From NCBI RefSeq assembly GCF_009363795.1, contig NZ_CP045420.1, forward strand, positions 1,221,001-1,285,000: a DNA stretch of 64,000 bases, in the 5' to 3' direction. Below are positions 9,464 to 22,639 of the stretch, piece by piece. How positions within the stretch are numbered: position 1 is the first letter of the stretch; the number at the start of each line of letters is the position of its first letter. A program made the position numbers and the translations under genes. Source of the stretch: Palleronia sp. THAF1. GTDB taxonomy: Bacteria > Pseudomonadota > Alphaproteobacteria > Rhodobacterales > Rhodobacteraceae. A model generated the notes under the pieces. That model was given only the letters and a program-made list of their open reading frames with translations. It was not told where the DNA came from and ran no database searches.

Positions 9464-9772
9464 TCAGCGGGCGGCTTTCTCGTCGATCCCGGACCGGCCT
9501 TCGCGCCGGGCGAGCTCAGCCTCGATGTCGTCAAGGCTCACATCCTGTGCCGCGCACATGACCAGCAGGTGATAAATTACATCGGCGGCTTCGGACGTCA
9601 GCCGCGTCCGGTCGCCCTTGACCGCTTCGATAATCGCCTCGACCGCTTCCTCGCCGAATTTCTCGGCGCATTTCTCGGGGCCTTTCGCCAGTAGCTTGGC
9701 CGTCCAGCTTGTGTCCGGGTCCGCGCCCTTGCGGGTTTCGATGGTGGCCGCAAGGCGGGATAGGGCGGTCAT
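9464..9772 (-). CDS. hisE: Phosphoribosyl-ATP pyrophosphatase HisE
   Basis: 102 residues from the ATG at 9772, which overlaps the hisF stop by four bases (ATGA). The HisE/MazG-like core is clear: [26 protein letters not shown] and [15 protein letters not shown], whose acidic residues bind Mg2+. It hydrolyses phosphoribosyl-ATP to phosphoribosyl-AMP in the second step of histidine synthesis. The longer frame to 10162 is only hisF read in another frame. Confidence 0.95.
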
Positions 9773-10530
9773 GCCAGCCTCATGGGGATACCGGCAGCCG
9801 CCATATGAGCCTTCGCCTCGCCGATGGTGAAGTCGCCGAAGTGGAAGATGGAGGCGGCCAGCACCGCCGATGCGCCCCCCTCGATCACACCATCGACCAA
9901 GTGATCCAATGTGCCGACCCCGCCAGAGGCGATCACGGGCACCGACACCGCATCGCTGATCGCGCGGGTCAGGGGCAGGTTGAAGCCCGCCCGCGTGCCG
10001 TCGCGGTCCATACTGGTCAGTAAGATTTCTCCAGCCCCTTTGGCCACGACCGTCCGCGCGAACTCTACAGCGTCGATGCCCGTTTCGCGACGCCCGCCGT
10101 GGGTGAAAATCTCCCACCGGCCCGGCGCGACGCCTTTCGCGTCGATGGCCACCACGATGCACTGGCTGCCGAAGCGTTCCGCCGCCTCGGACACCACATC
10201 GGGGCGGGCAACGGCGGCGGAGTTGAACGATACCTTGTCGGCGCCCGCCAGCAGCAGGTCGCGCACATCGTCAGCCGTGCGTACACCACCGCCGATTGTC
10301 AGCGGCATGAAGCAGTGTTCCGCCGTGCGGCGCACCAGATCGAACATCGTGCCACGGTTTTCGTGGGTGGCGTGGATGTCAAGGAAGCACAGCTCGTCCG
10401 CGCCGGCCGCATCGTAGGCGATGGCGGCTTCCACCGGATCGCCAGCGTCGCGCAGGTCAACGAAATTCACGCCTTTGACCACGCGCCCGTCGGCCACGTC
10501 AAGGCAGGGGATGATGCGTGTCTTCAGCAT
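9769..10530 (-). CDS. hisF: Imidazole glycerol phosphate synthase subunit HisF
   Basis: 253 residues from the ATG at 10530 ([20 protein letters not shown]), preceded by AAGGATT. It is a (beta/alpha)8 barrel with the catalytic Asp in CLDV, the second Asp in VVAIDAK, and phosphate-binding Gly motifs ([17 protein letters not shown]). With HisH it makes imidazole glycerol phosphate and AICAR. HisH is not in the window. hisA, normally a direct neighbour, lies 11 kb away at 21.8-22.5 kb on the same strand. The upstream frame to 10626 overlaps the divergent DUF302 gene leader and is not used. Confidence 0.96.
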
Positions 10531-10626
10531 GGGCAATCCTTTCGGGTGTCCAGATGCCCCACGCGGGCCAGCGGCGCAAGGGAACCCGCGCGCCCGCCAA
10601 AGGTTGGCCGGTAAATGGAGGATCAC

Positions 10627-11067
10627 ATGAACCGCACAATTCTAGCCACCGCCCTTGCCCTGACCGCCGCCCCGGCCCTGGCCGAAATCGAACGGATGGA
10701 GGCGCAAGGCTCTGTCGATGACGCGTTCTCGCGTCTCGAAAACGCCGTTGAAAGCGCAGGCGCCACTATTTTCGCCACCGTCGATCACGGCTCGGGCGCC
10801 GCCGATGCCGGGATGGAGCTGAACGCGTCCAAGCTTCTGATCTTCGGCAATCCGCAATTGGGCACGCCCGTGATGCAGGAAGACATGCTGGCTGGTCTGG
10901 TCCTGCCGTTGAAGATGCTGGTCTATTCCGACGGCGATCAGACCTACGTCGCCTATGAAGAGATCGAAGAAAGCCTCGACGATCTGGACGTGGATGACGA
11001 CCTGGAGGTTCTGGAGAAGATCGAAGGCGCCTTGCAGAACTTTGCAACCGCAGCCGTAGGCAACTAG
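10627..11067 (+). CDS. DUF302 family protein with signal peptide
   Basis: 146 residues. GGAGG five bases before the ATG at 10627 sets the start. A signal peptide ([18 protein letters not shown]) is followed by a DUF302-type domain: [41 protein letters not shown] and [22 protein letters not shown]302 proteins are small periplasmic or cytoplasmic proteins of unknown function. An acidic stretch lies near the C-terminus ([15 protein letters not shown]). The gene is divergent from hisF and converges with lacI, the stop codons sharing one CTAG. Confidence 0.85.
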
Positions 11068-12053
11068 GTCCGCGCAGGGCCGGTCGAGCCGCGTTCGACC
11101 ACCCGGCAGGCCAGCTCGACCCGTTTGGCGGGCTGGTCGGGTTTGGCAACCGTATCGCGCAGCAGGTCCAAGGCCACCGCGCCCAATTCGGCCATCGGGA
11201 TTTCGACAGCTGACAGCGGCGGCGATTGCAACGCGCATTGCGGCATCCCGTCGAAGCCCATCACGCTGACATCGCCGGGCACGTTTATTCCAATCCGCGA
11301 CAGCGCCATCAACGCGCCCACCGCCAGACTGTCGCCCGCCGCCAAAAGGGCGGTGGCGTCGCGTCCGCCCGTGAACCACTCCGTCACCGCCTGCGCCGCA
11401 AGGGCGGGCACCCAGTCCGACACCTCTATTATCGTATCCGGCACCAGGCCCGCGATCTCCATCCGCTCGCGCCACCCAGCCCGCCGCCGTGCGATGGTGC
11501 GCCGATCGCCACAGGTCAGGAACGCGATCCTGCGATGCCCCAGCGCGATCAGCCGATCCGTCGCCCGCGCCGCGGCGATGGAATTGTTCGGCGCGGCAGA
11601 AGAGAGTTGCATCTCGGGATCGTCCGCGTTGACGAGCACGCAGGGCAGGCCGGTCGCCCGCATCTCGGCGATCTGGTCATCACCGGGAGACAGCAGCAGG
11701 TAGCCCATCGCATCGTCGTCTGGTCGGATCGCATCAATGAGCCGCCCATCGGCTGCGCGCAATTCCAGCGTCAGATCGTGCAGCGCCGCGCGGGCGCGCA
11801 GGCCCTCCAGCACATGCAGGGTGAACTGGCTGCGGGCGGCGTCGGTCATTGCGGCTTGCCCGGCGATCAGGATCGCTTTGCGACCGGCCATCGCCAAAGG
11901 CAGGGGATAGCCCAGCGTCACGGCAGCGGCGTGGATCTTGTCGCGTAGATCGGGGCGCACGCCGGGCCGTTTCGCCAGCGCCCGGCTGACCGTCGCAGCC
12001 GACACGCCGCAATGGCGCGCAAGGTCGTCCAGCGTGATCCGGCGTTTTTCCAT
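11064..12053 (-). CDS. LacI family transcriptional regulator of the uronate cluster
   Basis: 329 residues. The N-terminal LacI helix-turn-helix is standard (TLDDLARHCGVSAATVSRAL), with the hinge helix near residue 45-55. It is followed by a periplasmic-binding-protein-like effector domain (MGYLLLSPGDDQIAEM, ALGHRRIAFLTCGDRR, DVSVMGFDGMPQCAL). It is divergent from the GH105-KduI-transporter operon, 75 bases away, and the intervening DNA holds a CTTGCGCAAG palindrome. The likely role is repression of that operon, relieved by an uronate breakdown product. The effector is inferred only from context. Confidence 0.9.
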   Translation of the reverse strand: MEKRRITLDDLARHCGVSAATVSRALAKRPGVRPDLRDKIHAAAVTLGYPLPLAMAGRKAILIAGQAAMTDAARSQFTLHVLEGLRARAALHDLTLELRAADGRLIDAIRPDDDAMGYLLLSPGDDQIAEMRATGLPCVLVNADDPEMQLSSAAPNNSIAAARATDRLIALGHRRIAFLTCGDRRTIARRRAGWRERMEIAGLVPDTIIEVSDWVPALAAQAVTEWFTGGRDATALLAAGDSLAVGALMALSRIGINVPGDVSVMGFDGMPQCALQSPPLSAVEIPMAELGAVALDLLRDTVAKPDQPAKRVELACRVVERGSTGPART

Positions 12054-12065
12054 GTAAACCGACCT

Positions 12066-12090
12066 GCAAGAATCTTACGTCTTGCGCAAG
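12066..12090. promoter_or_regulatory. Candidate LacI-family operator between the divergent lacI and GH105 genes
   Basis: A perfect 10-bp palindrome CTTGCGCAAG (12081-12090) overlaps a wider inverted repeat, GCAAGA (12066-12071) and TCTTGC (12080-12085). LacI regulators typically bind palindromes with a central CG. The location, 13 to 37 bases upstream of the lacI start and 38 bases before the GH105 start, would let one site control both promoters. Confidence 0.55.
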
Positions 12091-12128: not shown

Positions 12129-13202
12129 ATGAACGTCAAGACTACCCTGTCCCCCACGCTAAACCAGCTTGTCGCCGGTCTGACCGGGCTGCGCCATGAA
12201 GGTCAGTTCGACGAGCCGAACCTTGACGGGACAGCGGGCGATTACATCAGTTTCGATGGATGGGAATGGCCGCAGGGCGTTGGCCTGTTCGGTCTGGCGA
12301 AGCTGTGGCTTGCGACCGGTGATGACAGGTTGCGCGACGTGCTGGAAGGCTATTACGCAAAGTGGCTGGAACGCGGTCTTCCCGAGCGGAACGTCAACAC
12401 TACGGCCCCCATGCTTGCCCTATCGATCCTGTGGCGCGAGAATCAGGATGATCGCTGGCAGCCCGCTATGGACGATTGGGCCAATTGGCTGATGCGTGAC
12501 GCCCCCCGCACGCAGGAAGGCGGCTTCCAGCATGACGTATCCGACAAGATCAACGACGGAGAGTTGTGGGACGACACGCTCTACATGGTTGCCCTGTTTC
12601 TGGCGTCCTACGGCGACTCCTCTGGCCGCCGCGATCTGGTGGACGAGGCCGAGCGTCAGTTCCTGGTCCATACACGCCACCTGTCCGACCCCGAAACAGG
12701 TCTTTGGTTCCACGGCTGGACCTTCCATGGCCGTCACAACTTCGCCCGTGCCCTATGGGCGCGCGGCAATGCTTGGGTGACGGCGGGGCTGGTTGACCTG
12801 CCGGAACTGTGCCGGCTGTCGCCCTCGGTCTCTGCTTATCTGCAGGACGTGCTCACGACCCAGATCGCGGCGCTGTTGCCGATGCAAACCGAAGATGGCG
12901 CGTGGCGGACCCTGCTGGACGATCCGAGTTCCTACGAGGAAACGAGCGCCACGGCGGGCATCGCCTATGGGCTGATGAAGGCGGCACGGCTGGGACTTGC
13001 GGGCCGCGATGCCGCGCAGGCCGGACGGCGCGGCGCGGCCTACGTCGAGCGCCAGATCGACGCGGCGGGCGTTGTCGGCGGCGTGTCCTACGGCACGCGC
13101 ATGGGCCACGATCTGCAATTCTACCGCGACATTCCCATCCAGCCCACCGGCTACGGCCAGGCGCTGGCGATACTCTGTCTGACCGAGGCGATGCACCCAT
13201 GA
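12129..13202 (+). CDS. GH105 unsaturated uronyl hydrolase (YteR/RhiN-like)
   Basis: 357 residues from the ATG at 12129, preceded by GGAGG. The fold is the (alpha/alpha)6 toroid of GH88/GH105: YISFDGWEWPQGVGLFGLAKLW near the N-terminus, the catalytic-region motif DGELWDDTLYMV with Asp148/Asp149, and FHGWTFHGRHNFARALWARGNAW. Family members hydrate the double bond of an unsaturated uronic acid at the non-reducing end of lyase-generated oligosaccharides, releasing a 5-keto-uronate. There is no signal peptide, so it acts after import. It is the first gene of the operon and overlaps kduI by four bases. Confidence 0.9.
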   Translation: MNVKTTLSPTLNQLVAGLTGLRHEGQFDEPNLDGTAGDYISFDGWEWPQGVGLFGLAKLWLATGDDRLRDVLEGYYAKWLERGLPERNVNTTAPMLALSILWRENQDDRWQPAMDDWANWLMRDAPRTQEGGFQHDVSDKINDGELWDDTLYMVALFLASYGDSSGRRDLVDEAERQFLVHTRHLSDPETGLWFHGWTFHGRHNFARALWARGNAWVTAGLVDLPELCRLSPSVSAYLQDVLTTQIAALLPMQTEDGAWRTLLDDPSSYEETSATAGIAYGLMKAARLGLAGRDAAQAGRRGAAYVERQIDAAGVVGGVSYGTRMGHDLQFYRDIPIQPTGYGQALAILCLTEAMHP

Positions 13203-14032
13203 CCACAACCTGGACCACCCGCTACGGCGCGTCGCCTGCGCAGATCGACGGCATGTCGACCGACGCGCTGCGCTCCGAATTCCTGATGCCCGCGCTGTGG
13301 GCCAACGGCGAAGCGCGCCTCGTCTACACCCACGTTGACCGGATGGTCGTGGCGGGCATCTGCCCCGATGACGCCCCGATCCAGATCGGCGACGGCACAG
13401 AGGTCGGCACCGATCATCTGTTCCAGGCGCGTGAGGGTGGCATCGCCAACCTTGGCGACAAGCCGGGCACCGTGACCGTGGATGGCGAAGCGTTCAATCT
13501 TGCGCCCCGCGATATCATTTACGTCGGGCGTGGCGCGCAGGACGTCGCACTGTCGGGGCAGGGCGCGCGCTTTTATTTGAACTCGGTGCCCGCCGGTGCC
13601 GATCACCCGAACCGCCTGATCACCAAGGCCGAGTCCAAGCCCGTCACGATGGGCGACGAAGCAAAGTCCAACAAGCGCACCCTGCGCATGTATATCCACC
13701 CCGAAGTCTCGCCCTCGTGCCTGCTGCTGATGGGGATCACCGACCCCGCGCCCGGCAGCATCTGGAATACCATGCCACCCCACACGCACGAACGCCGGAT
13801 GGAGGCGTATTTCTACTTCGACATGTCCGACGAAGACCGCGTCATGCACTTCATGGGCAAGCCCGACTGCACACGCCACATGGTCGTGGCGGCGGGTGTC
13901 GGCGTGCTGTCCCCCGCCTGGTCCATTCACATGGGCGCGGGCACTGGCCCCTACGCCTTCGTCTGGGGCATGACGGGAGAGAACCAAGTCTATCAGGAAA
14001 TGTCGCCCGTCGCCGTGAAGGACCTGAAGTGA
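13199..14032 (+). CDS. kduI: 5-dehydro-4-deoxy-D-glucuronate isomerase KduI
   Basis: 277 residues. It starts at an ATGA overlap with the GH105 stop. It is a KduI-type double cupin: RSEFLMPALWANGEARLVYTHVDR, the IIYVGRGAQDVALSG segment and the metal-binding PPHTHERRMEAYFYFD with two His and a Glu. It converts 5-keto-4-deoxyuronate to 2,5-diketo-3-deoxygluconate, the step directly after the GH105 product. KduD, a KDG kinase and an aldolase are not in this window, so the rest of the pathway must be elsewhere. Confidence 0.95.
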   Translation: MTTTWTTRYGASPAQIDGMSTDALRSEFLMPALWANGEARLVYTHVDRMVVAGICPDDAPIQIGDGTEVGTDHLFQAREGGIANLGDKPGTVTVDGEAFNLAPRDIIYVGRGAQDVALSGQGARFYLNSVPAGADHPNRLITKAESKPVTMGDEAKSNKRTLRMYIHPEVSPSCLLLMGITDPAPGSIWNTMPPHTHERRMEAYFYFDMSDEDRVMHFMGKPDCTRHMVVAAGVGVLSPAWSIHMGAGTGPYAFVWGMTGENQVYQEMSPVAVKDLK

Positions 14033-16500
14033 CCCATCTGACCCGTCCATTGGTCCATGGCGCACCCGTCACCCTGTGGCGGCACTCGGATGTGACCGAG
14101 CAACCATGGGACGTGGCCGAGCGCCCCAAGGAGGGCGAGATGGATCCGTTCTTCTTCATGACGAAAGAGCGCAACTTCATCCCGCACGAATACCCCTGCC
14201 GCACCGAGTTCGCCGAACGCTACCGGGGCGCCGCGGTCGAGGAGCGCGCGACGGGCTCGGCGGATCGCAACTGGCTGGGCTTCGGCTCGCCCCGGTTGGA
14301 TCTGTCTGGCTTTTGGTTCCGCGCGACCCGGATCGCGGCGCGTGCGGAAGTTCTGCTGATCGCGGATCGTGCCGGACGGGCGACGCTGCGGCTGGCCACC
14401 TGTGGCGGCGCTGTGCTGCGGGTGAATGGCGCGCCCGTGCTGTCGATGTCCGACTACCGACGCAACTTCGAGACGGAGGCGGAGGTCTTCGTCGACCTGG
14501 ACGAAGGCGAAAACCGCGTCGTTCTATTCTTCGATGATCTGGCCGAGCGCGATACGCGGTTCTATGCGCAACTGACCTACGTAGACGGCCCGGACGCCGC
14601 GCAAGCCATCGAAGCGCCACAGGCCGCTGCGCAGATCGAGGCGCTTCTGGGTGAGATGCACTTCGAGCGCGTCGCCCATGATGGCGGTCCGCTGACGATC
14701 CTGCTGCCGCGACCAACCTCCGTGCCGCTGACTGCCGACGTGCGTATTGCGGGTGACTTCATGTCCCACGATACCGCACCCCAGCGGCGCGCAACGCTGG
14801 CAGCGGGGGCGGACCGGATCGAATTGGGCGACGCGTCAGACCTGCCCGCAGACTTCCGTCACGTGGAGGTGACGCTAGAGACCGACGGCTTTGCCGCCAC
14901 GCGCGTTTTGGGCACCGAGATTTCGCACGCCACCGCCCAAGGCCCCGCCCCGACAGGCGAAGCGGCCCGCATCGCCGAGGCGCTGGCCCATGTGGCACAG
15001 CATGGCGAGGCAGACACCGTCGCAGCCCTTGCACGGCTTGCCACCGGCGATGGCGGCGCGAGCACCCGCGCGATGATCGAGGCCAGCTTGCCGCGGATCG
15101 ACGCCTGCTGGGATTGCGCCGATTTCGCTCTGGTCCCGCTGATCGTGGGCCGCACGCTGTACCCAGAACTGCTGGGCGATCTGGCCGACCGCATCGACCA
15201 GACGATCCAAGGCTACCGATACTGGATGGACGAACCGGGCAACGACGTGCAGTGGTATTTCTCTGAAAACCACGCGCTGCTGTTCCACACCGCCGCTCAC
15301 CTTGGGGGCGCGCTGCTGCCTGATGCAACCTTCCGCCGTTCCGGTCGCTCCGGCGCGGAGCAATCACGGATTGGAGCCGAACGCCTGCGCGCCTGGTTCG
15401 ATCATTTCGAGCAGTGGGAGATGGCGGAATTTAACTCCTCTCCCTACTTCCCCATCGACCTGAAGGGTCTGACTGCGATCCATGCGTGCTCGCCCGACGC
15501 CGCGCTGCGTAACCGCGCCGCCAAGGGCATCGCGCGGCTGATCGAGTTGGTCGCGAACAGCGCACACAATGGCATCCTGACGGCAGCGCAGGGGCGCAGC
15601 TACGAGCATTCCTTGCGCGCCACATGTACCGCCGAACTGTCCGCCATCGGGCGGATGCTTTGGGGCACCGGCAGCTACGGCGCGCGGTTCCATGCTTTGC
15701 CCGGCCTGGCCATCTGCATCCGCGACCGTGGGCTGGTGCTGCCTGATCTGACCGACCGCGCCACGTGGGACCGCGACGACGCGCAGGAGTGGACGTTCGC
15801 GCAAGGCGAAGGCCGGATCGCGAAGCTGTATCATCACAAGACACGCGATCACGCGATGGGGTCTACGGCGGCCTACCGCTGGGGCGATTGGGGATACCAG
15901 GAAACGCTGATCCATCTGCGCATGGGCACCGATCCCAATGCACAGGTCTGGATCAACCACCCCGGAGAGGTCATCCATTCGGGCTACGGTCGCCCATCTT
16001 ACTGGGGCGGATCGGCCAGTGTGCCGCGCGTCCAGCAGTATCGCGATCTGGCTCTCGTCCGGTTCAATGGGCACCCCAGCCAACCGGATTTCACCCATGC
16101 ATGGTTTCCCCGCGCGGCCTTCGACGCCAGCCGCGTGCAGGGCGATATGGCTCTCGCGCAGGCCGGGGGGGCGCAACTGATGCTGAAAGCCTCCGGCGCG
16201 CTGGAAGAGATGATCCAAGGCCCCACCGCCGGAACCGAACTGCGGCTTGCCGGTCGGGACGGGTGGTGGCTTGTGCGGTTGGGTTCTACGCGCCAGCATG
16301 GCGACAGATTCGCCAAGCGCTTCGAAGGGCTTGCACCGATCGAACAGGCAGACGGCACCATAGCTCTGGACGATCCTGACTATGGAGCTGTCCGCTTTCA
16401 TCCCTCTGGCCGGATCGACGCCGAGGGAAGACAGATCGACCCCGCATCGTTTACCGTTGTGGGAGAGCGTCGGACCCTGCCGCTGAACGGGCAGGATTGA
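14029..16500 (+). CDS. Large protein of unknown family in the uronate operon; possible toroid-fold polysaccharide lyase or hydrolase
   Basis: 823 residues. Translation probably starts at GTG 14029, overlapping the kduI stop. No signal peptide is seen, so it is predicted cytoplasmic. I do not recognise a named family. Residues 60-270 look like beta-rich accessory modules (LRLATCGGAVLRVNGAPVL, NRVVLFFDDLAE). Residues 320-590 are helical and contain SENHALLFHTAAHLGG (Asn414, His415), FNSSPYFPIDLKGL (Tyr473, Asp477) and RSYEHSL (His527). Residues 600-823 look like a beta sandwich with DHAMGSTAAYRWGDWGYQE (His608) and VWINHPGEVIHSG. This helical-barrel plus beta-sheet layout with Asn-His and Tyr residues recalls heparinase II/III-type enzymes, but that is inference. 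Context suggests action on uronic-acid oligosaccharides. Confidence 0.75.
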   Translation: MTHLTRPLVHGAPVTLWRHSDVTEQPWDVAERPKEGEMDPFFFMTKERNFIPHEYPCRTEFAERYRGAAVEERATGSADRNWLGFGSPRLDLSGFWFRATRIAARAEVLLIADRAGRATLRLATCGGAVLRVNGAPVLSMSDYRRNFETEAEVFVDLDEGENRVVLFFDDLAERDTRFYAQLTYVDGPDAAQAIEAPQAAAQIEALLGEMHFERVAHDGGPLTILLPRPTSVPLTADVRIAGDFMSHDTAPQRRATLAAGADRIELGDASDLPADFRHVEVTLETDGFAATRVLGTEISHATAQGPAPTGEAARIAEALAHVAQHGEADTVAALARLATGDGGASTRAMIEASLPRIDACWDCADFALVPLIVGRTLYPELLGDLADRIDQTIQGYRYWMDEPGNDVQWYFSENHALLFHTAAHLGGALLPDATFRRSGRSGAEQSRIGAERLRAWFDHFEQWEMAEFNSSPYFPIDLKGLTAIHACSPDAALRNRAAKGIARLIELVANSAHNGILTAAQGRSYEHSLRATCTAELSAIGRMLWGTGSYGARFHALPGLAICIRDRGLVLPDLTDRATWDRDDAQEWTFAQGEGRIAKLYHHKTRDHAMGSTAAYRWGDWGYQETLIHLRMGTDPNAQVWINHPGEVIHSGYGRPSYWGGSASVPRVQQYRDLALVRFNGHPSQPDFTHAWFPRAAFDASRVQGDMALAQAGGAQLMLKASGALEEMIQGPTAGTELRLAGRDGWWLVRLGSTRQHGDRFAKRFEGLAPIEQADGTIALDDPDYGAVRFHPSGRIDAEGRQIDPASFTVVGERRTLPLNGQD

Positions 16501-16547: not shown

Positions 16548-17822
16548 ATGAAACTGAATACACTGATGGCCACCGTGGCACTTGCCGCGCTCGGCACCGC
16601 CGCCACTGCGCAGGACACCACCGAACTGCGCATGATGTGGTATTCGGACGGGATCGAGGGCGAGGTCATGCAAGACCTGCTCGACCGCTTCGAGGAAGAG
16701 AACCCCGACATCGACGTGGTGCTCGACAATGTAGCCTATCAGGTCATTCAGGAGCAGCTGCCGATCCAGTTGGCTTCCGGTCAAGGCCCCGACATCGCAC
16801 GCGTCACGAACCTGAAAGAGCAGGCGCAGCACTGGTTGGACCTGTCCGATTACGTGGAAGACGCCGCTTATTGGGAAGAGAACTTCGGCAATCGCTTTGA
16901 CTGGATGCGCGAAGACGGATCCGACGCGATCCCCGGTTTCCTGACGCAGCTGACCATGGTTGGAGGCTACGCCAACAAGACCCTGTTCGAACAGGCGGGC
17001 GTCGAAATGCCCGGCGACGATGCAACGTGGGATGACTGGGTGAACGCCGCCGATGAAGTGCGCCAAAGCCAAGGCACCGCCGCGGCCTTCGCCGTGGACC
17101 GCTCTGGCCACCGTATCTCTGGCCCGAACGCGTCTTTCGGGGCCAACTACATCGCAGAAGACGGCACGCCCGCGCCGGTCGATGACGGCACGATGGCTTT
17201 CGTCGAAAAGCTGGTGAACTGGACGAAAGAGGGCAAGCAGCTGCCCGAAGTCTGGGTGTCGGCCGCTGGCACGACCTATCGCTCTGGCGCGGATGACTTC
17301 ATCAACGCGCAGATCCCGTTCCTCTACTCCGGCTCCTGGCAGGTGGCGAACCTGTCCACCAAGATCGGCGATGCCTTCGACTGGGTCGCCATCGGATCGC
17401 CCTGCGGCACGGCGGGCTGTTCGGGCCTTGCGGGCGGCGCGGCGCTGGTCGGCATCAAGTACACCGAGCACCCCGAAGAGGTGGCACGCGTGATGGACTT
17501 CCTCGCCTCTGAAGAAATCGTGCGCGAATTCTCCGAGCGTACACTGTTCCTTCCGGCCCACGCGGGCATCGTCGAAGCCGGCGGTCTGAATTTCCAGTCC
17601 GACGATCCGAACGTGCCCCCGGCGCTGGACCGTTTCGTGCAAGCCTCCGGTGAGACGCTGCCGCTGGCCGACCAGCTTCCCGCCTGGAAGTGGGCCAACG
17701 CCTACTACGGCGCGCTCGTGACCCGTGCCTCGCAAGCCATGGCCGACGAGATCACGCTGGAAGAAGCGCGGATGCTGATGGATCAGGACATCGCCGACGC
17801 GGTCGAGAACGCGTCGCAGTAA
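16548..17822 (+). CDS. Sugar ABC transporter substrate-binding protein (family 1)
   Basis: 424 residues from the ATG at 16548, preceded by GGGAGGA. Signal peptide MKLNTLMATVALAALGTAATAQ. The mature part is a MalE/UgpB-like binding protein: LRMMWYSDGIEGEVMQDLLDRF, QLPIQLASGQGPDIARV and QIPFLYSGSWQVANL. The ligand is inferred to be an unsaturated uronic-acid oligosaccharide, because the operon begins with GH105 and KduI. It feeds the two permeases and ATPase encoded directly downstream. Confidence 0.92.
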   Translation: MKLNTLMATVALAALGTAATAQDTTELRMMWYSDGIEGEVMQDLLDRFEEENPDIDVVLDNVAYQVIQEQLPIQLASGQGPDIARVTNLKEQAQHWLDLSDYVEDAAYWEENFGNRFDWMREDGSDAIPGFLTQLTMVGGYANKTLFEQAGVEMPGDDATWDDWVNAADEVRQSQGTAAAFAVDRSGHRISGPNASFGANYIAEDGTPAPVDDGTMAFVEKLVNWTKEGKQLPEVWVSAAGTTYRSGADDFINAQIPFLYSGSWQVANLSTKIGDAFDWVAIGSPCGTAGCSGLAGGAALVGIKYTEHPEEVARVMDFLASEEIVREFSERTLFLPAHAGIVEAGGLNFQSDDPNVPPALDRFVQASGETLPLADQLPAWKWANAYYGALVTRASQAMADEITLEEARMLMDQDIADAVENASQ

Positions 17823-17828
17823 GCGCAT

Positions 17829-18845
17829 ATGTCCGCCATTGGAAAAACCTTGGGCAGCGTGGTCACGCTGCCCTTGATCTGGCTCGCGCGCGCCGTCGAT
17901 TACCCCTTGCGGTGGTGGCAGCGCAAAACCGGGCAGGGCGGGATGGCGGCTGCCTTCCTTGCCCCCAACCTTGCGATCTTCGGCGTCTTCGTGCTGTTCC
18001 CGCTGGCGCTGAACTTCGTCTACTCGACCACGGCGGGCACCAACGTGCTGCTGTCGGACCGCACCTTCGTCGGCGCTGATCAATACGCACGGCTGCTGGC
18101 CTGCGAGGATTACACCCGCGCCATCACCTGCCGCGAAGACCTGTTCTGGCGTGCCGCTGGCAACACGTTCTTCTTCGTCATTCTACAGGTCACGATGATG
18201 GTCGTCGTCTCGACGATCACAGCGCTGATCCTGAACCGCAACATCGCCGGTCGCGGCTTTTTCCGCGCGGTCTTCTTCTTTCCAGTCCTACTGTCTCCGG
18301 TCGTCGTCGGCCTGATATGGCGGTGGATCCTGCAACGGCAGGGCCTGCTGAACCTGATCATGGTGAACCTTGGGCTGGACCCAGAGGTCTGGCTGAATGA
18401 CCGCACCTACGCCTTCGCGGCCACCATAGGCGTGTCGGTCTGGGCGCATATGGGCTTTTACACGTTGATCCTGCTGGCCGGTCTGCAGGCGATCCCGCGC
18501 GATCTGTACGAGGCGGCTGAGATGGACGGCACGCCGCCGGGCCGCGTCTTTTGGCGCATCACGCTGCCGCTTCTGGGGCCGAACCTTGCGGTGGTGCTGG
18601 TGCTGTCGCTGATCAAGGGCGTGCAGATCTTTGATGAGGTCTACGTTCTGACTGGCGGCGGGCCGGGCACCTCGACCCTGTATCTCACGCAATATATCTA
18701 CGAAGTCGGCTTCGCCTCGATCCTGCGCAATCCGGGGCTGGCGGCGGCGGCGTCGATCCTGATGGGGCTGGTGCTGGTGGTTCTGACACTGGTGCAGCTG
18801 TGGCTGTCGCGCCGATCCGAAGGCAAGGGGAGGCGTGACGCATGA
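17829..18845 (+). CDS. Sugar ABC transporter permease (MalF-like)
   Basis: 338 residues. About six membrane helices follow a cytoplasmic N-terminal segment of about 40 residues; the first helix is AAFLAPNLAIFGVFVLFPLALNF. The EAA motif is EAAEMDGTPPGRVFWRITLPLLGP. It has a short loop rich in charged residues and Cys (LLACEDYTRAITCREDLFW) in the first periplasmic part. The gene starts six bases after the binding-protein stop and overlaps the next permease by four bases. It forms a heterodimeric channel with that permease. Confidence 0.92.
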   Translation: MSAIGKTLGSVVTLPLIWLARAVDYPLRWWQRKTGQGGMAAAFLAPNLAIFGVFVLFPLALNFVYSTTAGTNVLLSDRTFVGADQYARLLACEDYTRAITCREDLFWRAAGNTFFFVILQVTMMVVVSTITALILNRNIAGRGFFRAVFFFPVLLSPVVVGLIWRWILQRQGLLNLIMVNLGLDPEVWLNDRTYAFAATIGVSVWAHMGFYTLILLAGLQAIPRDLYEAAEMDGTPPGRVFWRITLPLLGPNLAVVLVLSLIKGVQIFDEVYVLTGGGPGTSTLYLTQYIYEVGFASILRNPGLAAAASILMGLVLVVLTLVQLWLSRRSEGKGRRDA

Positions 18846-19897
18846 GCCACGTGTCGCAATTCCTTTTCCGCCGCCGGGGCCACAGCAATCGCTGGCATTG
18901 GACCGATGTGGTCACGTGGCTGTGGCTGATCGGCGGCACGATCCTGATGTTCGGGCCGGCGCTGTGGCTGGTGTCGTCGTCCTTCAAAGGGCCCGCCGAA
19001 CTGGCCGAGTTCCCACCCACGCTGCTGCCCTACCAACAGATCACGATTGCCGTGGACGGCTACGACGACCCGCTGCCCCTCTACACGGTTCAGACCGAGG
19101 ACGGCGGCACCCGGCGGCTGGCCGAGATCCGTCGGATCGGCACCAATGCTCAGATGGTCGACCCTGATGCGCCGGACGAGCGCATCGACGTCAACATCGC
19201 CGACCGCACCCCGGTCCGCGAGATTGGGCTGGCGACCGAAAACTACATCGAACCCTTGCTCGCAAACGACTTCCTGCGCTTTTTATGGAACTCGGTCTTC
19301 GTCACCACGATGGCGACGATCATCACGCTGCTGACCAATTCCATGGCCGCCTTCGCCCTGTCTAAATACCAGTTCCGGGGCCGGGATGCCGTGATGCTGA
19401 TCATCGTCGCCACACTGATGGTGCCGTTGTCGGTCATCCTTGTGCCGCTGTATTCGGTCGTGAACGCGACCGGGCTGCTGAACTCACTTTGGGGCGTCAT
19501 CCTGCCCACGGTCGCCACGCCCACGGGCGTCTTCTTGCTGCGCCAGTACATGTTGACGATCCCCGACGAATTGCTGGAAGCCGCACGGATGGACCACGCG
19601 AGCGAGTGGCAGATCTACTGGCGTATCGTTCTGCCATTGGCCGCGCCCGCGCTGGCCGTGCTGGCGATCTTCTCGGTCGTCTGGCGCTGGAACGACTTCC
19701 TGTGGCCGCTGATCGTGCTGTCGCAGCGCGAGACCTATACGTTGCAGGTGGGCCTGAACACCTACGCGGGCGAATTGAACGTGCAGTGGCACTACATCCT
19801 TGCGATGACCGTGGTGACGATGATCCCGGTCGTCCTTGTCTTCGTCTTCCTGCAACGCTTCATCACCACCGGCATCGCCGGCGCTGGCATCAAGTAA
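18842..19897 (+). CDS. Sugar ABC transporter permease (MalG-like) with enlarged periplasmic loop
   Basis: 351 residues, longer than the usual 270-300. The extra length is an insert of about 85 residues between the first two helices (roughly residues 60-145, from TIAVDGYDDPLPLYTVQTED to GLATENYIEPLL). It is hydrophilic and probably periplasmic, where it could contact the binding protein. The C-terminal half is standard, with EAARMDHASEWQIYWRIVLPLAAP as the ATPase-contact loop. It is co-translated with the upstream permease (ATGA) and followed by the ATPase gene after ten bases. Confidence 0.9.
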   Translation: MSHVSQFLFRRRGHSNRWHWTDVVTWLWLIGGTILMFGPALWLVSSSFKGPAELAEFPPTLLPYQQITIAVDGYDDPLPLYTVQTEDGGTRRLAEIRRIGTNAQMVDPDAPDERIDVNIADRTPVREIGLATENYIEPLLANDFLRFLWNSVFVTTMATIITLLTNSMAAFALSKYQFRGRDAVMLIIVATLMVPLSVILVPLYSVVNATGLLNSLWGVILPTVATPTGVFLLRQYMLTIPDELLEAARMDHASEWQIYWRIVLPLAAPALAVLAIFSVVWRWNDFLWPLIVLSQRETYTLQVGLNTYAGELNVQWHYILAMTVVTMIPVVLVFVFLQRFITTGIAGAGIK

Positions 19898-19907
19898 GGG
19901 GCTGCGC

Positions 19908-20938
<1,031 letters not shown>

Positions 20939-20954
<16 letters not shown>

Positions 20955-21787
20955 CCGGTCAGGAACTGAAGCACGGCGGCGCGCATAGCGGGCGTTTCCT
21001 CGTGCCCGTGGTTCGGCTCCACGGTCACGGACAGGGCGGTGGGCGCATCGGCATAGCCTTCTGCCACATCCCCGAGCGCGATGCCCCTTGAGTCGTCGGG
21101 TGTCAGCGGGTCGAGCGCGCCCAACCCGATGAGCTGCGGACGCGGCGCGATCATCCCGGCGATCTGGCCGTTGCGGGCCAAGGTGGGCAGGCCGGGAATC
21201 GTCAGGTAAGGCCCATGCAGATCATGCGCGCCACTGGCCATTAACGCGTCCAAGTCGGCGAGGCAGCACAGCTGGACTACGGCGGAGACACGCGTGTCTA
21301 CGCCCGCCAGCCAATAGCCCAACGTCGCCCCCATCGATATTCCGTAGATGGCGACCGACCCGAAGCGCGCATCGCTTTCCAGCCAGTCCAGTTGTGACGA
21401 CAGCTCGCCCAGCATCCGCCCGGCCAGCGAGCCGCCACGCCACAGCGCGGCCTTCGCGGCGGCGTTTTCCTTTTCATGCTGGCGGGTGCCGAAACACGGC
21501 AGGTCGATACAGACAGAAGCGATGCCAAGCTGCGAGAGAGCAGGGCCAAGCGGCGCGGGGCTGGCGGGGCGGCCTTGGGTCAGTTCCCGCGCGCCGAGGT
21601 CGTAGCGGTTCCCATGGGCGTGGATCATCAGGACGGTGGGCCAGGGCGGCGGGGTGTCGGGTGTCACCAGCACGCCGCCGACCACGTCGCCATTCGCAGC
21701 GGCGAAGCTCAGCCGCCCGGCATCCTCGGACACAAAACGCAGTGGATGGCGGCCGATTTCGAACCGATCCGCCAGTCGCTGTCGCAT
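20939..21787 (-). CDS. Alpha/beta-hydrolase, dienelactone-hydrolase/acetylxylan-esterase-like
   Basis: 282 residues. The alpha/beta-hydrolase core has an oxyanion-region HAHGNRYDLG, a nucleophile elbow YGISMGATLGYWLAG (Ser), a late Asp in GALDPLTPDDSRG and the catalytic His in EPNHGHEETPAMR. There is no signal peptide. The start overlaps the hisA stop by one base (TGATG), and the 3' end overlaps the sugar ATPase gene. It may deacetylate imported oligosaccharides, as its position beside the uronate operon suggests, but the head-to-tail coupling with hisA means it could simply belong to that transcript. Substrate unknown. Confidence 0.82.
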
Positions 21788-22506
21788 CAGCCCTGCAGAG
21801 CCTTCAGCGCCGCGCGAAGGTCGATCGCGCCGTCATAGAGCGCCCGGCCAGAGATCGCGCCCGCGATGACGCCAGTGTCGCGCAGGGCCAGCAGGTCATC
21901 CATCGACGACACGCCGCCCGATGCGATCACCGGAATGTCCACCGCGCGGGCCAGGGCCCCGGTCGCCGGGATGTTCGGGCCCGCCATCGCGCCATCGCGG
22001 TCGATGTCGGTATAGATGATCGCCGCGACGCCTGCGTCTTCGAACTGGCGAGCGAGGTCCGTCACCATCACGTCGGTCTCTTCGGCCCAGCCGCGGGTTG
22101 CAACACGGCCGTTGCGCGCATCCAGACCCACCGCCACTTTGCCGGGAAACGCCCTTGCGGCCTGCCGCACAAGATCGGGGTCTTCCACGGCGACGGTGCC
22201 AAGGATGACCCGCGCCAGCCCTTTGTCCAACCACGACTCGATGGTAGCCATATCGCGGATACCGCCGCCCAATTGGCAGGGCACGTCCACGCGGGACAGG
22301 ATCGCCTCGACCGCCTCGGCGTTCACGGGACGCCCGGCGAAGGCGCCGTTCAGGTCCACCAGATGCACCCAGGCGCAGCCAGCGTCGACGAAGGTGGCCG
22401 CCTGTGCGGCGGGGTCGTCCCCGAACACTGTCGCGGCCTCCATGTCGCCTTTCAACAGGCGCACGCATTGGCCGTCCTTCAGGTCGATGGCGGGATACAG
22501 GATCAT
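21787..22506 (-). CDS. hisA: Phosphoribosylformimino-5-aminoimidazole carboxamide ribotide isomerase HisA
   Basis: 239 residues from the ATG at 22506 ([20 protein letters not shown]). It is a (beta/alpha)8 barrel related to HisF, with catalytic Asp8 and a second Asp in [10 protein letters not shown], and phosphate loops GGGIRD and [10 protein letters not shown]. It catalyses the Amadori rearrangement that produces the HisF/HisH substrate. It is followed on the same strand by the esterase rather than hisF; hisF-hisE lie 11 kb away, past the inserted catabolic cluster. Confidence 0.95.
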
Positions 22507-22639
22507 TGGCGGGACTCCGGTTCTGAACGCTGCCGCTTGTGGCACCGTGCCGCGTTACTTGGCAAGCCGACCTCACGTCACTCTGGACAACGCACGCGGC
22601 CCCGGCACGATGAAGATACATCTTTGGGAGGAGACCCAC

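Follow-up and report, generated by a model that had tools for sequence, protein, structure and literature searches.

A predicted cytoplasmic lyase of heparinase-type fold encoded in a GH105-KduI-importer operon of Palleronia sp. THAF1

In the pectin route, the enzymes KduI and KduD are fed by the polysaccharide lyase (PL) of family PL22, the oligogalacturonate lyase Ogl, a cytoplasmic protein with a beta-propeller fold. Similarly, the PL26 rhamnogalacturonan exolyase (PcRGLX), which combines beta and toroid domains and is covered by models in Pfam, releases a product needing an enzyme of glycoside hydrolase (GH) family GH105. The gene analyzed here, called X, is located at 14029..16500 on the + strand of a 64,000-nucleotide stretch of the Palleronia sp. 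THAF1 genome (the window), and encodes a putative cytoplasmic oligouronide lyase of 823 aa. The place proposed for X in its pathway is that of Ogl, from which it differs by a predicted toroid in place of the propeller; as to PL26, X matches no Pfam family and no PcRGLX entry is found among the best 50 structural matches of its residues 300-823.

Closer likenesses are offered by lyases of the heparinase type. PMC11848413 ascribes a common fold, and largely the same catalytic machinery, to PL12, 15, 17, 21, 33 and 39; it also describes a tyrosine chemistry common across the superfold of PL17 Alg17c and HepC, and gives Tyr450 as the PL17 base. The PL15 enzymes Atu3025 (PL15_1) and the exolytic heparinase BIexoHep (PL15_2) are described as a toroid plus antiparallel beta structure, as predicted for X; BIexoHep also carries a small N-terminal beta domain, that of X being much larger (about 300 residues). 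PMC11921355 and PMC7904915 report His311/Tyr365 and H531A for Atu3025 (spacing 54 and 166 residues), His226/Tyr280/His446 for VBAly15A, His337/Tyr390/His555 for BIexoHep (spacing 53 and 165), where Asn336 precedes His337, and His202/Tyr257/His406 for heparinase II (spacing 55 and 149).

The model and the conserved residues favour a lyase over a hydrolase, and indicate, with a probability of about 0.74, that X acts in the cytoplasm as a lyase of imported uronic oligosaccharides, its fold being a heparinase-type (alpha/alpha) toroid joined to an antiparallel beta domain; its action is probably exolytic. An intracellular lyase or hydrolase for such substrates had been proposed in the initial annotation, and is now supported by the fold, the residues and the kduI neighbours. 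The gene is defined by its open reading frame, by an overlap with kduI, by the fold model and by its conserved residues. The X start codon is GTG, contained in a GTGA shared with the kduI stop (14029-14032), and its stop codon lies 47 bases before the gene for a substrate-binding protein (SBP), so that the position and coupling previously described are confirmed by the coordinates. A scan of genome contigs returned 260 pattern-matched stretches, 255 of which encode a relative of X by tblastn; the reading frame is therefore not a product of chance. As judged by hydropathy, X has no signal peptide, in agreement with the earlier description: its most hydrophobic 11-mer near the N-terminus averages 0.85 on the Kyte-Doolittle scale, vs 2.15 in the SBP.

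Models were computed by AlphaFold2 for full-length X (61 sequences; predicted local distance difference test, pLDDT, 86.5; predicted TM-score, pTM, 0.89) and for residues 300-823 (pLDDT 87.0, pTM 0.89). Residues 1-300 (14029..14928, + strand) form N-terminal beta domains, with strands at about 80-195 and 221-298, which may be jelly-roll and Ig-like; a conserved loop of low confidence, residues 39-58, ends in HEYPCR. A helical toroid follows at residues 311-578 (14959..15762, + strand), and an antiparallel beta-sandwich at residues 585-823 (15781..16497, + strand; strands 585-817). The succession of a beta-rich N-terminal third, a helical middle and a beta-rich end, anticipated from the letters, is thus borne out by the model.

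When residues 300-823 were compared with the PDB by Foldseek, six matches were obtained at E<=0.001 and all six are heparinase-type lyases: 4ok4, 4mmh, 4mmi, 3afl, 3a0o and 6jp4, corresponding to Alg17c, HepC twice, Atu3025 twice and Dp0100. Alg17c (E 1.5e-5) and HepC (E 2.3e-5), both with prob 1.00, are the best, with no sequence match to X and another substrate context. The toroid followed by antiparallel beta structure of the heparinase-type superfold is therefore present in the model, at TM-scores of 0.31-0.42. The best folds are hence those of PL17, PL12, PL15 and Dp0100, HepC being presumably a PL12 and Dp0100 a PL39 member. A PL8 chondroitinase AC, 1rw9, ranks seventh and a GH127 protein eighth (we take the chondroitinase entries to be PL8), and no PL21 entry occurs among the best 50 matches of this segment; of the folds named for comparison in the initial annotation, PL12 is among the best, PL8 is only seventh and PL21 does not appear. 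With full-length X, 161 PDB matches were found at E<=0.001. They are led by GH2 glycosidases at a TM of about 0.1, and chondroitinase ABC (1hn0) is at rank 27 (TM 0.25, prob 0.99). GH2 proteins top the list only when the N-terminal part of X is included, none being found among the best 50 once residues 1-299 are removed. In addition, the catalytic TIM barrel of GH2 is not seen in the model, where the beta domains are followed by helices and then strands.

Conservation was evaluated on three alignments: A1 (33 rows, X and 32 relatives), A2 (61 rows, the window sequence together with 60 loci from the set of 80 defined below, leaving out L060, which contains runs of N, and 19 near-duplicates) and A4 (20 rows from Alpha- and Gammaproteobacteria, Bacillota and a haloarchaeon). 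L004, with one TGA inside the match, was excluded from every alignment. Asn414-His415 (15268..15273, + strand), candidates for carboxylate binder and catalytic base, and Tyr473 (15445..15447, + strand), a candidate catalytic acid/base, are invariant in 33/33, 61/61 and 20/20 rows, respectively; these are the residues pointed out in the helical middle at the start, where conservation of an Asn-His-Tyr cluster had been proposed as a check. Within Arg523-Ser524-Tyr525 (GRxY motif; 15595..15603, + strand), which may also belong to the active site, Arg523 and Tyr525 are invariant in A1, A2 and A4. The candidate histidine of the beta domain is His644, inside WINHPGE (15958..15960, + strand), found in 32/33 rows of A1, in 58/61 of A2 (Gln otherwise) and in 20/20 of A4. 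His608, which had been singled out along with WINHPGE, is poorly kept (5/33 in A1, 12/61 in A2), and was discarded as an active-site residue for this reason. The invariant positions of A4 include Glu413, Asn414, His415, His420, Glu467, Ser470, Tyr473, Arg523, Tyr525, Gln624 and His644, and several carboxylates are invariant in it (Asp362, Asp365, Glu413, Glu467). The order Asn-His, Tyr, beta-domain His is that of the published lyases of the superfold; the distances, 58 residues from His415 to Tyr473 and 171 from Tyr473 to His644, are near the PL15 values available in the literature (53-54 and 165-166), and BIexoHep shares the Asn before the first His. The catalytic roles given here to the residues of X are inferred from sequence conservation and from analogy with these enzymes.

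The same data bear on a first alternative, in which X would be a glycoside hydrolase whose toroid and sandwich resemble those of GH127/GH146 or GH81. An extracellular lyase would produce unsaturated oligosaccharides, and X would trim neutral or uronic sugars from them after import and before GH105 acts. Such families do appear below the lyases in the Foldseek list of residues 300-823 (GH127, E 5.3e-3, prob 0.30; GH81, E 8.4e-3, prob 0.87 over 224 columns; GH146, E 0.069, prob 0.13), the invariant carboxylates speak for a hydrolase, and any upstream lyase would suffice for GH105. This is nevertheless unlikely, as only lyases occur among the six matches at E<=0.001, the invariant Asn-His, Tyr and His follow the lyase order at near-lyase spacing, and no GH catalytic family is matched by sequence.

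By sequence, X is not matched in Pfam, NCBIfam or the PDB, in keeping with the initial failure to assign it to a named family; no strong sequence match to a characterized family, which would have spoken against the initial proposal, was found either. PDB searches with single sequences or profiles of X gave nothing except unrelated weak rows, PHROGs a chance-level row only (E 9.5), and phage records no match. Scanning the 33 rows of A1 one by one against Pfam gave scattered weak matches, the best being PA14 (3 rows) and Pentapeptide_3 (2 rows), and no lyase or hydrolase catalytic family. In particular, neither X nor the 32 relatives of A1 match Hepar_II_III, Alginate_lyase or DUF4962, and PF07470, the GH88/GH105 family, is matched by the neighbouring gene alone. 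X differs from PL15 in sequence and also in gene context, X genes being located with GH105 and KduI. Profile comparisons by hhalign against small, shallow PL15, PL17 and DUF2264 profiles remained at noise level; of two PL15-PL17 control pairs this comparison recovered one (88%) and overlooked the other, which makes it a weak test. X is placed in no named PL family because membership of PL12, 15, 17 or 21 is not indicated by Pfam; sequence and model together suggest a protein working as a heparinase-type exolyase, outside the named PL families as judged by Pfam. Word searches of the literature, mostly unable to reach subscription papers, gave no paper on the protein among the matches listed.

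The gene neighbourhood was analyzed on 80 loci, the best 80 of the 255 relatives, a set which leans to near relatives and in which some loci end at contig ends; the larger set of 95 loci (L001-L095) includes duplicates and the window itself. The 80 relatives are 54-79% identical to X over the best segment, and their titles are mainly of Rhodobacterales and Hyphomicrobiales. GH105 is found in 65 loci, KduI in 60 and both together in 60, always on the same strand as X; SBP is found in 79, the two permeases in 77 and 77, the ATPase in 76 and LacI in 74. A KduD-like gene (at least 250 bits) occurs in 11/80, and the copy of L074, which was checked, is above the NCBIfam cut-off. KduI also adjoins X directly in three annotated plasmid loci. 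On the Pseudosulfitobacter and Salipiger plasmids the order is GH88, TRAP importer, KduD, LacI, KduI, X, and on the Pannonibacter plasmid it is LacI, GH88, KduI, X, ABC (ATP-binding cassette) importer. Elsewhere, X is followed by GH105 and then an MFS_2 carrier in Photobacterium, the pair X-GH105 is on a Subdoligranulum plasmid, and in L114, which comes from elsewhere in the phylum, the order is KduI, KduD, GH105, X. The importer therefore changes and the pairing with KduI or GH105 stays. The association with kduI proposed as a check in homologues is thus widespread, and the case of homologues mostly devoid of uronate-pathway neighbours was not seen, GH105 or KduI being the rule in the 80 loci. 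In a set of 11 distinct, hand-picked whole genomes (Palleronia marisminoris was entered twice, G012 = G771), GH88/105 is present in 10, KduI in 9 and both in 8; the window genome has a single GH88/105 and a single X.

More distant relatives are known. A second group, 30-32% identical to X, has GH105 with X in 6/7 loci; GH28 accompanies X in the loci L110-L112, as well as on pRL12 of R. johnstonii 3841. In a tree of 40 rows, whose deepest branches are long and unsurely placed, a clade of 30 (25 with KduI nearby) is apart from a clade of 8, in which 7 have GH105 and 3 of these also GH28. Plasmid records gave 199 matches, including Subdoligranulum, Photobacterium and Haladaptatus (residues 350-549 only); among the matches listed, X is labelled hypothetical or not labelled. 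A haloarchaeal relative of 661 residues aligns to the profile over toroid and sandwich with 249 bits, the N-terminal domains being missing. The haloarchaeal plasmid gene (L161:11782-13767) is located among Gfo/Idh/MocA oxidoreductases and sugar-phosphate isomerases. X was detected in 7/194 near-relative genomes and in 6/299 genomes of the phylum, both counts including the window genome, and by profile in 1/385 genomes of the class, the window genome alone; being present in few genomes of each draw, its distribution is therefore patchy. The family occurs in soil, plant-associated and marine bacteria.

The gene content also bears on a second alternative, a uronate C5-epimerase within this superfold: X would then ready the uronate for GH105 or for some other lyase. 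Human DS-epi1 has, according to PMC11848413, the fold and the catalytic Tyr of PL33 and relatives. In that case, however, the operon would be left without a maker of the unsaturated bond needed by GH105 and KduI, because no gene cluster outside the core eight is found in more than 25/80 loci, and the epimerase is very improbable. Equally slight is the chance of a non-catalytic binding or regulatory protein on a retained lyase scaffold, for which the GH2-like N-terminal beta domains may speak, since few positions are as well conserved as the candidate catalytic residues, even in the haloarchaeon, which lacks those domains.

If X is a lyase, the following route can be proposed. Uronic-acid-bearing oligosaccharides would enter via the ABC transporter. 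On the basis of the conserved residues and of the published relatives, the +1 site of X would hold a uronate whose carboxylate is neutralized by Asn414 and His644, His415 or Tyr473 would take the C5 proton, and Tyr473 would protonate the leaving oxygen, the 4-O bond being broken by beta-elimination. The N-terminal beta domains probably shut one side of the cleft, which would result in exo action on short oligomers. The product would end in a 4,5-unsaturated uronate, and GH105 would remove this residue, to be converted by KduI and KduD to 2-keto-3-deoxygluconate; the steps of GH105, KduI and KduD are the established chemistry of those families. In this way the products of two neighbouring genes would pass the pieces on to central metabolism.

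Several observations weigh against this interpretation. The six lyase matches are modest, with TM-scores of 0.31-0.42 and rmsd (root mean square deviation) of 12-14 A over whole alignments, the loops 406-411, 618-622 and 654-661, near the candidate residues, are below pLDDT 50, and the full-length model ranks GH2 first, with PL8 1hn0 as the sole lyase among the best 50. No sequence-level link to any lyase family emerged from Pfam, the PDB or hhalign. GH105 is absent from 15/80 loci and KduI from 20/80; KduI is absent from 2/11 distinct whole genomes; within the second group, GH105 is missing from L005 over 20 kb (L107), and neither GH105 nor KduI is annotated near the haloarchaeal relative. 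Palleronia marisminoris has X, importer and KduI, and no GH88/105 in a draft 99% complete; GH105 could be dispensable there if X frees unsaturated monomers from uronate-uronate oligomers. Finally, the GH105 of the window and five other X-adjacent GH105 proteins (6/6 scanned) pass the NCBIfam cut-off for 'beta-galactosidase BglB', a name which suits GH105 poorly because KduI adjoins.

The complete gene order in the window is lacI (− strand), a TTGCGCAA palindrome, GH105, kduI, X, SBP, two permeases and ATPase. The GH105/GH88 unsaturated-uronyl hydrolase gene (12129..13202, + strand; PF07470 9.7e-85; NCBIfam NF051900 521 bits) was started at the ATG downstream of GGAGG. kduI, for 5-dehydro-4-deoxy-D-glucuronate isomerase (13199..14032, + strand; NF002091 341 bits, cut-off 250), begins at ATG 13199 in an ATGA shared with the GH105 stop, so that GH105, kduI and X overlap in series. 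The importer comprises SBP (16548..17822, + strand; PF01547 9.1e-25), permease 1 (17829..18845, + strand) and permease 2 (18842..19897, + strand), both open reading frames named by sequence inspection and annotated counterparts, and the ATPase, an open reading frame (19908..20954, + strand) annotated ugpC on the Pannonibacter plasmid. The best KduD candidate of the window genome is just short of the cut-off (332.1 vs 338.85 bits).

The divergent LacI-type regulator (11064..12053, - strand) is below the cut-offs of the NCBIfam LacI/GalR models. The palindrome CTTGCGCAAG (12081..12090, no strand assigned) is a probable LacI operator. Its core TTGCGCAA recurs beside lacI: 49 of the 74 loci with lacI have it in the 550 bp that surround the start region of lacI, against an expectation of 0.046 per 550 bp from the base content of the loci; a LacI-type operator is therefore likely.

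Other observations concern the surroundings of X genes. After the ATPase gene, an alpha/beta-hydrolase-like gene (20939-21787, opposite strand; Pfam below cut-off) recurs in 22/80 loci, and its product might remove acyl groups from imported sugars. The operon is flanked by hisF/hisE (about 9464-10536, - strand) and hisA (21787-22509, - strand), named by inspection and presumably neighbours in related bacteria. No matches to hisA, hisF or hisE were found in L001-L095, where L001 is the window's own locus with short flanks and the others reach at most 10 kb per side; as these genes are not found beside the loci of relatives, the operon may have been inserted into a his cluster. In Palleronia marisminoris, the region upstream of X (L009:7098-10040) has no GH105-kduI pair, kduI being elsewhere in the genome; the cluster representative of the gene located there (L011) is mannitol/fructuronate dehydrogenase-like, below cut-off. 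In the second-group locus L110, a DUF2264/DUF2264_C gene (L110:3185-5110) follows an ABC ATPase-like gene and immediately precedes kduI, with X 3.6 kb further downstream; its protein may be one more enzyme without a name in this pathway, and a literature word search for DUF2264 found no paper. A relationship of X itself to DUF2264, considered because of this arrangement, is unsupported, as neither PF10022 nor PF20938 is matched and hhalign gave noise.

There is a slight lean towards a wider proposal, by which X would found a new PL family, made up of cytoplasmic exolyases in which GH2-like beta domains precede a heparinase-type core. It would comprise KduI-linked and GH105/GH28-linked proteobacterial clades and an N-terminally bare haloarchaeal core, and in rhizobia and roseobacters its target would be a uronate linkage in glycans from plants or algae. 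For the GH28-linked loci a pectic substrate is favoured, because the GH28 of L110 scores 703.7 bits against the NCBIfam PglB model, above its cut-off of 600, and PMC6683767 cites PglA/PglB of Agrobacterium (Mathews 2019) for a part in the breakdown of polygalacturonic acid. In the KduI clade, rhamnosyl-glucuronate ends of arabinogalactan, glucuronan or pectic oligomers are possible substrates. If the lyase reading is true, the NCBIfam name 'beta-galactosidase BglB' would be questionable for X-adjacent GH105 proteins, because a lyase-fed GH105 would be an unsaturated uronyl hydrolase. X would then be the missing bond-cutting step of this operon in rhizobia, mesorhizobia, paracocci and roseobacters, and would provide a single gene for testing the bacterial use of plant and algal uronic oligosaccharides.

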